A model generated the notes under the pieces. The model did not search any database. It was not told the DNA's origin and saw nothing but the letters and a program-made list of their open reading frames with translations. Shown one piece after another: positions 55,563 to 58,295 of a DNA stretch of 64,000 bases. The stretch's first letter is position 1. Each line of letters begins with the position of its first letter. The stretch spans positions 1 through 64,000 of the forward strand of contig NZ_JAEFCB010000002.1 in NCBI RefSeq assembly GCF_016405905.1. The letters run 5' to 3'. Source of the stretch: Variovorax sp. IB41 (GTDB taxonomy: Bacteria; Pseudomonadota; Gammaproteobacteria; Burkholderiales; Burkholderiaceae_C). The translations under genes were made by a program, and so were the position numbers.

Positions 55563-56228
55563 ATGACCGATAAATCTCCGCCACCCCGCCTGCATCTGCT
55601 CGGCGATGCAGCGCTCCTGTGCGAGTTGCCGGCACCGGCCACGCTGGTGCAGCAGCAGCGCATCTGGGCACTGGCCGCGCAGGCCCGCGAATGGCCCGGC
55701 GTCGGCGAGGTGCTGCCGGGCATGAACAACCTCACGCTCACCTTCGACCCCACGGCGATCGAGCTCGATGCGCTCATGGCGCAGGTGCTCGCCGCGTGGC
55801 CGAAGCTCTCGGCCAAGGCCGTGGAAGGCCGGCTGGTCGAGATTCCGGTCGCCTATGGCGGCGAGCACGGCCCGGACCTGGGCGATGTCGCGGCCCACAC
55901 CGGCCTCACGCCGGCCGAGGTGGTGCGGCGCCACAGCGCGGGCGAGTACGTGGTCTACCTGCTGGGCTTTCTCCCCGGCTTCGCTTTCGTGGGCGGCCTC
56001 GCGCCCGAGCTCGCCACGCCGCGCCGCGCGGAGCCGCGCACCGCGGTGCCCGCGCGCTCGGTCGGCATCGGCGGCGAGCAGACCGGCATCTATCCGCTGG
56101 TGTCGCCGGGCGGCTGGCAACTGATCGGTCGCACGTCGCTCGAGATGTTCGATCCGGCGGCCGAATCGCCCACCCTGCTGCGCCCGGGCGACCGCGTGCG
56201 CTTCGTCGTCGAGAGCGTAGAGACATGA
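55563..56228 (+). CDS. pxpB: 5-oxoprolinase subunit PxpB
   Basis: A 221-residue KipI-family protein: LHLLGDAALLCELP at the N-terminus, RLVEIPVAYGGEHGPDL, VYLLGFLPGFAFVGGL and the end GDRVRFVVES. PxpB and PxpC form the phosphorylating part of the prokaryotic ATP-dependent 5-oxoprolinase. The stop overlaps the pxpC start. Confidence 0.93.
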   Translation: MTDKSPPPRLHLLGDAALLCELPAPATLVQQQRIWALAAQAREWPGVGEVLPGMNNLTLTFDPTAIELDALMAQVLAAWPKLSAKAVEGRLVEIPVAYGGEHGPDLGDVAAHTGLTPAEVVRRHSAGEYVVYLLGFLPGFAFVGGLAPELATPRRAEPRTAVPARSVGIGGEQTGIYPLVSPGGWQLIGRTSLEMFDPAAESPTLLRPGDRVRFVVESVET

Positions 56229-57223
56229 TCGTCGTCCAGAAGCCCGGCCTGCTGGCCTCGGTGCAAGACCTGGGGCGGCACGGCCATCGCCAGCTGGGCA
56301 TCTGCCCGGGTGGCGCGCTCGACGTGCTGGCGCTCACGCTCGCGAACCGGCTGGTCGGCAACGCCGACAGCGCCGCGGGCCTCGAGCTCACGATGGGCGG
56401 CTGCGAACTGCGCTTCGAGACCGACACGCGCATCGCGCTGGCCGGCGACGACTTCGGCGCGCAACTCGACGGCGTGCCGCTCTGGCCCTGCTGGAGCGTA
56501 CCGGTGGCCGCGGGGCAGGTGCTCAAGCTCCAGGGCGCGAACGCGTCCGGCGCGAAGAAGGCGGGCCTGCGCAGCTGGCTCGCGATTGCGGGCGGCATCG
56601 ACGTGACGCCCGTGCTCGGCTCGCGCAGCACCGATCTCAAGGCCGGCTTCGGCGGCCACGAAGGCCGCGCACTGCGCAAGGGCGACAAGCTGCCGCTGGG
56701 CGCCTCGCGGCTCGATGCGGCGCAGCGCACCCGCAAACCCTTCGGCCTGCGCGGCCCCGACTGGGGCCCGGACGAAGCCGATGCGGCCATCGCCCTGCGC
56801 GTGCTGCCCGGCCCCGAATTCGAACTGTTCACGCTCGCCGCGCGCGAGGTGCTGTGGGGCGACCGTTGGCGCATCACCTCGCAAAGCAACCGCATGGGCA
56901 GCCGGCTCGCGGGCACTGAGCTCAAGCGCAAGCGCGCGGGCGACATGCTCTCCTCGGGCGTGATCCCGGGCACGATCCAGGTGCCGCCCTCGGGCCAGCC
57001 GATCATCCTGATGGGCGATGCGCAGACCACGGGCGGCTATCCGCGCATCGGCGTGGTGATCCGCGCCGACCTGTGGAAGCTCGCGCAGGCGCCGCTCAAC
57101 GGCAAGCTGCGCCTCGTGCAGGTCGACATAGCAGGGTCGCTCGCCGCGTGGGCCGAGCAGCAGCGCTACCTCGCGCAAGTGGCACAAGGCCTCGCCGTGG
57201 CAGGCTGGCCGGGCGCGGCCTAG
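56225..57223 (+). CDS. pxpC: 5-oxoprolinase subunit PxpC (biotin-dependent carboxyltransferase-like)
   Basis: A 332-residue KipA-type protein: VQKPGLLASVQDLGRHGHR at the start, GICPGGALDVLALTLANRLVGN, and LSSGVIPGTIQVPPSGQPI with GDAQTTGGYPRIG near the end. ATG overlaps the pxpB stop (ATGA). The TAG stop lies inside the left arm of the 269-bp inverted-repeat element, so the element directly abuts or has supplied the end of this gene. Confidence 0.93.
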   Translation: MIVVQKPGLLASVQDLGRHGHRQLGICPGGALDVLALTLANRLVGNADSAAGLELTMGGCELRFETDTRIALAGDDFGAQLDGVPLWPCWSVPVAAGQVLKLQGANASGAKKAGLRSWLAIAGGIDVTPVLGSRSTDLKAGFGGHEGRALRKGDKLPLGASRLDAAQRTRKPFGLRGPDWGPDEADAAIALRVLPGPEFELFTLAAREVLWGDRWRITSQSNRMGSRLAGTELKRKRAGDMLSSGVIPGTIQVPPSGQPIILMGDAQTTGGYPRIGVVIRADLWKLAQAPLNGKLRLVQVDIAGSLAAWAEQQRYLAQVAQGLAVAGWPGAA

Positions 57224-57488
57224 GGCCTGTTCACCCTACGCAAGGGGTCGCGAAGCTCGCCACAGCCCGTCCATCAAGGCGCGTGACGCCGTGCGTGCGT
57301 CTGCACGCACAAGGAACGCAACGCCGAGGGGCGGGCTGTGGCGAGCTTCCCTCCGGGTTGCTTCGCAAAGGGGCTGTCTGCGGCGTTGCCCGCGCTTGCA
57401 AGGCGCAAGCCTTGCTGCGCACGGGCGCCTTGCACACAGCCCCTTTGCGAAGCAACGCGACCCCTTGCGTAGGGTGAACAGGCCCTAG
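57220..57488. mobile_element. 269-bp nested inverted-repeat element (MITE-like) between pxpC and pxpA
   Basis: Outer arms 57220-57252 and 57456-57488 are perfect 33-bp inverted repeats that begin and end with CTAG. Inside are two further perfect hairpins: 18 bp (57252-57269 with 57332-57349) and 21 bp (57357-57377 with 57436-57456). The first encloses GTGCGTGC-GTCT-GCACGCAC; the second encloses TGCAAGGCGC / GCGCCTTGCA. The whole folds as a three-way junction with two branched arms. No transposase is encoded. It looks like a non-autonomous mobile repeat or structured RNA element. Confidence 0.75.
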
Positions 57489-57554
57489 ACTGTGCAAGCG
57501 CACCGCCAGCGGGCCGCGCCGGTGCAGTCCCGCTGAAGAAGAAGGAACCTCCCC

Positions 57555-58295
57555 ATGCACATCGACCTCAATGCCGACCTCGGCGAAGGCGCGGGCAGCG
57601 ACGAAGCGCTGCTGGGCCTCGTGAGCTCCGCCAACATCGCCTGCGGCTGGCACGCGGGCGACGCCAAGACCATGCGCCAGTGCGTGCGCTGGGCCATCGA
57701 ACACGGCGTGGCCATCGGCGCGCACCCCAGCTTTCCCGACCGCGAGAACTTCGGCCGCAGCACCATGCACCTGCCGCCCGACGAGATCGTCTCCAACGTG
57801 CTCTACCAGGTCGGCGCGCTCGCCGCGATCGTCAAGGCCGAAGGCGGCCAGCTCGCGCACGTGAAGGCGCACGGCCAGCTCTACAACCAGGCGGTGAAGG
57901 AGCCCGAGCTCGCCGATGCGCTGTGCGAGGCGGTGCGCCGCTTCGACCCGTCGCTCAAGTTCTTCGGGCTCGCCGGCAGCAACATGATCGATGCCGCGCG
58001 CCGCGCCGGTCTCACGCCCGTGGAAGAAGTGTTCGCCGACCGCGGCTACATGCCCGACGGCAGCCTCGTGCCGCGCAGCCAGCCCGGCGCGCTGATCGAG
58101 AGCGAGGAGCAATCGATCGCGCAGACCCTCGCGTTCGTGCGCGACCACCAGGTGACGGCCATCGACGGCAGCACCGTGGCGGTCAATGCGCAGACCGTGT
58201 GCCTGCACGGCGACGGCGCGCATGCGCTGGCCTTTGCGCGGCGCATCCGGGAGCGCCTGCAGGCCGAAGGCATCGCCGTGCGCGCGATGGCGTGA
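57555..58295 (+). CDS. pxpA: 5-oxoprolinase subunit PxpA (LamB/YcsF family)
   Basis: A 246-residue protein opening [12 protein letters not shown], then [28 protein letters not shown] and [11 protein letters not shown], all diagnostic of LamB/YcsF. PxpA hydrolyses the activated lactam with PxpBC to give L-glutamate. Ribosome-binding site GAAGAAGGAA. Separated from pxpC only by the inverted-repeat element. Confidence 0.95.

Follow-up and report, generated by a model that had tools for sequence, protein, structure and literature searches.

A probable IS5-moved MITE family that inserts at stop codons and keeps a branched fold, found between pxpC and pxpA of Variovorax

Between pxpC and pxpA in the window (the whole 64,000-nucleotide stretch of Variovorax DNA analyzed here) lies a mobile element of 263 bp, GGG...CCC, at positions 57223-57485 on the plus strand, which was delimited by comparing copies with empty sites and in which no gene is recognized. 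We consider it probable that this element represents a widespread family of non-autonomous MITEs, bounded by terminal inverted repeats, moved by IS5-type transposases, and inserting at stop codons, whose internal fold is kept and likely has a role at the RNA level.

The three perfect inverted repeats of 33, 18, and 21 bp described in the original prediction are confirmed. The outer arms (57220-57252 and 57456-57488) form the 33-bp repeat, whose outermost CTA and TAG belong to the target and not to the element proper. Inside it, 18 perfect bp (57252-57269/57332-57349) open a first inner hairpin and 21 perfect bp (57357-57377/57436-57456) open a second, each perfect inner stem enclosing an imperfectly paired conserved core that is part of the structure. 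RNA folding of 57220-57489 yields -225.5 kcal/mol, compared with -123.3 ± 5.2 for dinucleotide shuffles (z = -19.7; 0 of 200 as low). In this fold, stem A (31 pairs including the flanking TA; 5′ arm 57223-57251 and 3′ arm 57457-57485, both annotated on the plus strand) carries hairpin B (57252-57349, plus strand, 98 nt) and hairpin C (57357-57456, minus strand, 100 nt), with the spacer CCTCCGG (57350-57356, plus strand) between them. Hairpin B contains the core AAGGCGCG (57276-57283) ... GCAACGCCGAG (57318-57328) and scores 102.1 bits with hairpin model R1, a model in which this same copy is among the 18 hairpins used. Hairpin C is homologous to B and inverted, matching the hairpin-B model on the minus strand (68.4 bits, E = 1e-13). 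Both ends of the element carry a terminal inverted repeat core, GGGCCTGTTCACCCTA on the left (57223-57238, plus strand) and its counterpart on the right (57470-57485, minus strand), which end comparison finds to be common to IS5-type insertion sequences (ISs).

The gene names given earlier for the surrounding four-gene pyroglutamate operon hold by Pfam: CT_C_D (pxpB), CT_A_B (pxpC, 56225-57223, plus strand), LamB_YcsF (pxpA, 57555-58295, plus strand, downstream of the element), and Peptidase_C15 (pcp). Open reading frames of 134 and 330 amino acids run mechanically across the element, and neither appears gene-like by eye. Like bacterial MITEs, the 263-bp element is small, non-coding, and flanked by terminal inverted repeats. 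The window contains no Rfam match at gathering score, and a known Rfam RNA was rejected as an identity, as a permissive search returned only 10 sub-threshold matches, nine to miRNA precursors and one to a CRISPR repeat. No intrinsic terminator or promoter pattern is present at 56900-57900.

The insertion itself can be read from orthologous junctions. Across the pxpC-pxpA junction in the best 30 of 58 genomes with pxpA, three loci hold a full element (the window, G038, and G047), one holds a remnant (G039), and 26 are empty. In 25 of the 26 empty loci pxpC ends in an in-frame TAG within the context (A/C)TAGACT (24 with A and one with C); in the remaining one, L183, the pxpC end differs. The window reads CTA[GGG...CCC]TAGACT, and 331 bp separate the stop from pxpA, compared with 66 bp in the closest empty genome; hence, 265 bp were gained, corresponding to the 263-bp element plus a duplicated TA (57221-57222 on the left and 57486-57487 on the right). 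The pxpC protein is unchanged because the left TA and the first G of the element (57223) together form an in-frame TAG at 57221-57223. The prediction had rightly placed the pxpC stop codon in the left arm, and this can now be refined, with the TA coming from the target and the G from the element. Because targets other than CTAG exist, for example TTA...TAA and CTA...TAA, the duplication is TA rather than CTAG.

This stop codon has been struck independently more than once, by the element in the window and by that in G038 and G047, which lies in the opposite orientation and belongs to another subfamily. At another gene (L055/L111), a single stop codon carries two elements that are 61% alike, between flanks that are 95% and 87% identical. 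In G039 (L126/L156), only the right element end remains, fused to the end of pxpC, which now stops at an in-frame TAG within the remnant.

The host genome contains three near-complete copies, the one in the window and two others at 95% and 94% identity, along with a fourth, weaker match (L004, C47:219726) from which most of hairpin C is gone. The flanks of this fourth copy are those of full copies in G033 and G074 (L108 and L110), so that it directly illustrates shrinkage in place. The host also has a solitary element end, about GTTGAACAGGCCCTAG, where a TetR-like gene (named by eye) stops with TAG (L017:1499-1517; C49:105236-105254), and this end is probably the remnant of another lost copy. 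A different long hairpin with a stem of about 25 bp, giving a weak hairpin-model match (29 bits), lies at L190:17045-17160 (host C11, about 117 kb).

Within the genus, 46 of 100 genomes, host included, have a match at E ≤ 1e-20. In the family sample, matches at E ≤ 1e-10 occur in at least 25 of 299 genomes and at least 17 of 141 genera, the own genus counted; these are lower bounds, since only two candidates per genome were scored. Full-length family matches reach down to 68% identity. One plasmid record matches, from Variovorax paradoxus; no genes are annotated at this place in the record, and by our own reading a TAG-ending frame of 276 open codons abuts the left end of that copy. A search of phages for the element gave no match, and we found no prior description tied to this element family in the open-access literature. 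The dispersed copies, together with the empty sites and the target duplication, are again those of a bacterial MITE.

The largest number of copies was encountered in G095, with at least 20 (22 and 21 exact ends; loci L048, L070, L071, L134, L149-L154, and L438-L446). Nine compared copies are 97-100% identical to L048, and G095 has no match to the IS5_3 transposase model at E ≤ 0.001. Judging from this near-identity, the G095 copies represent a recent burst in a genome that lacks an IS5_3 match. By eye, two copies at L134 lie 13 kb apart, facing each other, with identical inner flanks, and in the copy at L445:2582-2870 (G095 C39) the end of hairpin C is replaced by other hairpin-rich sequence, perhaps marking a recombinant.

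Shorter forms of about 50-190 bp are most readily understood as local deletions within the palindrome; their breakpoints look individual by eye. Elements of about 163 bp with similar ends (TGTTGACACTA type) occur at L235:6109-6272, L309:461-623, and L326:1370-1532, of which L235 and L309, from Clostridiales and Oscillospiraceae MAGs, do not form the T fold. These are perhaps another family that uses related transposases.

Insertion points were compared in 112 junction sets comprising full copies, short forms, and six ISs, reduced to 99 by dropping records with alike 60-bp flanks, a step that also drops independent insertions at one site, including G038/G047 and the IS L119. The 99 records consist of 76 full copies, 18 shorter forms, and five ISs. 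A TA is present on both sides in 69 of them (52 full copies, 12 shorter forms, and five ISs), and the lack of a clean TA..TA in the other 30 is, at a guess, due to decay. Of these 69 insertions, 51 lie in the TAG or TAA stop of an open frame whose third-position GC resembles that of coding sequence; a further 15 are intergenic or ambiguous, two are near a gene end, and one is intragenic. Among CTAG targets, 40 of 49 are at stop codons, compared with 24 of 54 among the CTAGs of a 400-kb portion of the host genome (p = 0.0001), or 24 of 47 once intragenic control sites are dropped (p = 0.002); these counts depend on gene calls of our own, made from open frames and GC3, and set insertions from many genomes against a single control genome. 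The window itself has two of five CTAG sites at stops. Coarser removal of duplicates (112 to 70 sites) gives the same CTAG bias, with 26 of 30 at stops.

The terminal repeats of the element recur on ISs of the same genus: the four genomes G023, G041, G081, and G091 together have six of them, each 825-829 bp long, which end in AGGGC(C/G)TGTTAACAC(T/A)A and are all flanked by TA..TA. The transposase is split over two frames in five of the six and occupies one frame in L116, where it scores 239.8 bits with NF033580 (IS5_3; cut-off 110) and also matches PF13340 and PF01609. These partner ISs have the features of the IS5 family, IS427-like group, namely a DDE transposase and a TA duplication together with a two-frame transposase, and the element has the ends matching an autonomous IS that are expected of a bacterial MITE. 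Only the end repeats are common to the element and the six compared ISs, which contain no hairpin sequence. More ISs with matching ends occur in Pelomonas (both ends exact), in a Holophagaceae MAG, and in additional genomes of the host genus; two of the 11 genus loci scanned (L395 and L402) have no matching end pair. In addition, an IS in G041 (L119) and an element in G011 (L075) occupy the same stop codon of one gene, with flanks that are 98% alike on the gene side and less so on the other. Judged from ends and targets taken together, an IS5-family transposase (NCBIfam IS5_3 type) acting in trans is the most likely mover of the element.

Alternatively, the match to IS5-type ends could be ancestral or borrowed, and another enzyme, perhaps encoded by a single-copy host gene, could now move the element. 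The burst in G095 favors such a scenario, as does the poor co-occurrence of IS and element: element matches at E ≤ 1e-20 are found in two of 11 genus genomes with the transposase and in 44 of 89 without (p = 0.06). The host genome has no such transposase at E ≤ 1e-5, a single weak IS5_3 match of 39 bits being present. A larger autonomous element with these ends was rejected for G095, where none is visible in the nine stretches compared; three further stretches compared come from G092 and G028. Nevertheless, the common end repeat, the TA/CTAG target, and the one insertion point shared at base precision all speak for the IS5-type enzyme, and an IS may be lost following a burst. We therefore regard a different present-day mover as unlikely. 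That the locus reflects chance or ordinary intergenic terminator hairpins has next to no likelihood, given the folding z-score of -19.7, the dispersed copies, the exact empty sites, and the lack of a terminator pattern; this reading is refuted by the copies and empty sites, and we found no point in its favor.

The fold recurs with little variation in size. Among 135 folded elements, many of them close relatives of one another, 132 form two branches of 88-130 nt on one stem; the exceptions are L302, which is outside the family, and L149 and L273, in which hairpin C is shortened. Both hairpins measure 97-103 nt in 117 of the 135, stem A has 28-34 pairs in 130, and the spacer between the hairpins is typically CCnnnGG. 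A conserved core, AAGGCGC ... GCAACGCC, is present in both hairpins, within stems that are otherwise free in sequence. Because the hairpin-B model matches hairpin C on the minus strand, the element can be described as an inverted dimer, each half comprising a terminal repeat and one hairpin.

In an alignment of 18 B hairpins, 96.3% of cells pair, and 32 of the 38 pairs have changes on both sides. The covariation score of hairpin B is 0.715, compared with 0.193 ± 0.016 for shuffled alignments and at most 0.138 for slid partners. With representatives below 80% arm identity (27, 25, and 26 sequences for stems A, B, and C), the covarying fractions are 0.288, 0.373, and 0.385, compared with 0.059, 0.053, and 0.048 after shuffling, and all three stems lie above every one of 200 shuffles. 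Covariation shows, at the level of aligned copies, that the fold is kept and the stem letters are not. The relatives, empty sites, target duplication, and compensatory changes that the prediction had proposed to look for are all present, and the copies and covariation exclude its opposite case, a single copy with neither relatives nor compensation.

Applied to 24 loci outside the model, the hairpin model gives 21 matches in 17 loci. Scores of 50-54 bits are obtained for three Ca. Thiodiazotropha loci, a gammaproteobacterial MAG, and an Acidobacteriaceae MAG, and Sulfurimicrobium scores 45 bits; several of these taxon names are those of MAGs, in which contigs may be misplaced. Low scores of 27-34 bits are found for L252 (a Zetaproteobacteria MAG), L272, L273, and the second hairpin of L337, and because one place in a 464-kb control scores 29 bits, these four rest on their ends and fold. 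The seven loci missed are L302, L235, and L309, which do not have this fold, the short L253, L296, and L339, and L344, in which the fold is present.

Orthologous insertions allow change after insertion to be followed. In six comparisons at four orthologous sites, 31 substitutions occur at 276 unpaired sites (0.1123), and 19 single and four double changes at 656 pairs (0.0206 per nucleotide). Including the identical same-site pair L051/L072, the values are 0.0176 for paired and 0.0978 for unpaired positions. The rate of change at paired positions is thus about one fifth of that at unpaired ones, albeit in few comparisons; a search for more orthologs at two sites in 101 genomes returned only the three known copies per site. 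After insertion, the stems appear to change slowly in place, and single mismatches still accumulate. The error-free arms had originally been taken to imply recent insertion or ongoing selection. Of these, recent insertion is doubtful, as a deleted remnant of the element occupies the same site in G039, and the roughly fivefold slower change at pairs in orthologous insertions elsewhere fits ongoing selection.

The four double changes compare with 0.28 expected, an excess that could also arise without selection on the fold if template switching between the palindrome arms during replication copies mutations across, quasi-palindrome correction being a known process. However, only 23 of the 656 pairs have changed, at 0.0206 per nucleotide compared with 0.1123 per unpaired site, and this low total counts against correction alone because correction converts changes and does not suppress them. 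In addition, the mismatched core is conserved and has escaped correction, and the hairpin lengths are nearly fixed. An origin of the covariation in template switching is therefore improbable.

A further question is whether the fold acts as RNA or as DNA. On the core-bearing strand, hairpin mismatches show an excess of G.T over A.C of 46:20 at 95% clustering (p = 0.002) and 25:10 at 80% clustering (p = 0.02), the three clustering levels giving 25:10, 46:20, and 72:28; this filtered count leaves out the fixed T.G pair 19 of hairpin C. Stem A has no such excess (6:0, 14:24, and 17:29 at the three levels), and none appears when mismatches are counted relative to transcription of the upstream gene (42 G.T, 46 A.C, and 62 other). 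An unfiltered count of representatives gives 29:27 for A, 33:18 for B, and 18:15 for C. Plain mutational strand bias does not explain the excess, because hairpins B and C have their cores on opposite strands. The excess weakly fits a core-bearing strand that acts single-stranded, and we treat it as a weak signal because the hairpins show it and stem A does not. An RNA role is nonetheless favored, because read-through is expected at the gene ends where the insertions lie, and because the stems are kept after insertion.

A less likely alternative to the RNA role is a role of the fold in movement, as DNA. The fold could be needed as single-stranded or cruciform T-structures, arising in replication or transfer and recognized by the mobilizing enzyme or a host factor, with the structure selected via mobility. 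Consistent with this, stem A, which contains the presumed transposase-binding ends, also covaries strongly and lacks the wobble asymmetry; the hairpins are mirror-symmetric, one to each end; and stems of about 31 and 21 bp correspond to three and two turns of B-DNA. On the other hand, DDE enzymes of the IS5 kind work on double-stranded ends, the six compared ISs share the end repeats only, and orthologous copies that are not moving still change about five times more slowly at pairs. On balance, selection of the fold through mobility seems rather unlikely to be the main explanation.

In outline, the T shape resembles AAV-type terminal hairpins, viral replication ends in which one stem carries two internal palindromes, but the likeness is one of geometry only. 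A REP/RAYT identity was rejected because the element has long terminal repeats and a TA duplication, neither of which is known from GTAG-type REPs. As far as the relevant part of PMC3733652 describes them, GTAG-type REPs resemble the element in being palindromic repeats whose ends often give a TAG to flanking open reading frames, and differ in their length of 20-40 bp and their link to RAYT enzymes acting on single-stranded DNA. In the IS427 group of the IS5 family, ISPsp10 landed just upstream of a TAA, and such sites were proposed as preferred (PMC4133298, in part). According to the same part of PMC4133298, this group resembles the partner ISs in its TA duplication and two-frame transposase. 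ISPsp10 differs in that it is an IS with its own transposase, which the element lacks, and in that its transposase gene takes its stop from the target, whereas here the element restores the stop codon of a host gene; the partner ISs, at about 825 bp, have no hairpins. In the sections of the two accounts that bear on them, the TAG-supplying REP ends (PMC3733652) and the IS427-group IS before TAA (PMC4133298) are precedents for the stop-codon trick.

Other small repeats are compared here with the corresponding sections of PMC2229807. RUP, Correia/NEMIS, and ERIC are like the element in being small, with terminal inverted repeats, TA at the ends or target, and a stable stem at the RNA level (PMC2229807). 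Unlike them, the terminal stem of the element bears two homologous inverted hairpins of near-fixed length and strong covariation. In those sections, other bacterial repeat elements are described as a stem paired end to end without arms, and RUP was assigned to its partner IS through matching ends and a TA target (PMC2229807). An ERIC identity was rejected, since the 127-bp enterobacterial repeat is set apart by size and design from this 263-bp element of other architecture. CIR elements of Caulobacter and Brucella consist of two long inverted-repeat arms and a linker, comparable to the two arms here, and are described as unlike the end-to-end-paired elements, with a methylation motif at the loop (PMC2229807, same sections); the present element combines a terminal stem with two arms.

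In the preferred reading of an IS5-moved, stop-codon-inserting MITE family, insertion takes place at TA, preferably in CTAG and mostly within TAG stop codons. As the sequences show, the TA is duplicated and the first G of the element restores the TAG, leaving the upstream protein intact. By covariation, the fold is an inverted dimer with a terminal repeat and a homologous 100-nt hairpin in each half, and we infer that, once inserted, it is read through with the gene, placing a large structure right after the stop codon. Because the element is mirror-symmetric, transcription from either side would meet a sense hairpin first. The likeliest role of the fold would be at the RNA level, at the 3′ ends of the two neighboring genes, in processing, protection, or termination; such a role may make the insertion tolerable, so that the element persists. 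A more far-reaching version, which we put forward tentatively as a possibility, is a selfish structured-RNA family that spreads between the stop codons of many bacteria as a shared 3′ UTR, with a mirror-symmetric RNA fold selected for presenting the sense hairpin first either way.

The mobility of a MITE requires its ends only, but here the interior fold is nearly fixed while the stem letters turn over, and it is kept in betaproteobacterial and gammaproteobacterial contigs and apparently beyond. Since the fold is kept although the ends would suffice, the non-coding interior would have a function that can be tested. The stop-codon trick, in which the target TA is completed by the element's own G, explains how such an element can enter an operon and leave its proteins unbroken. 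The many natural pairs of loci with and without the element allow the effect of a large 3′ structure on the neighboring genes to be measured.
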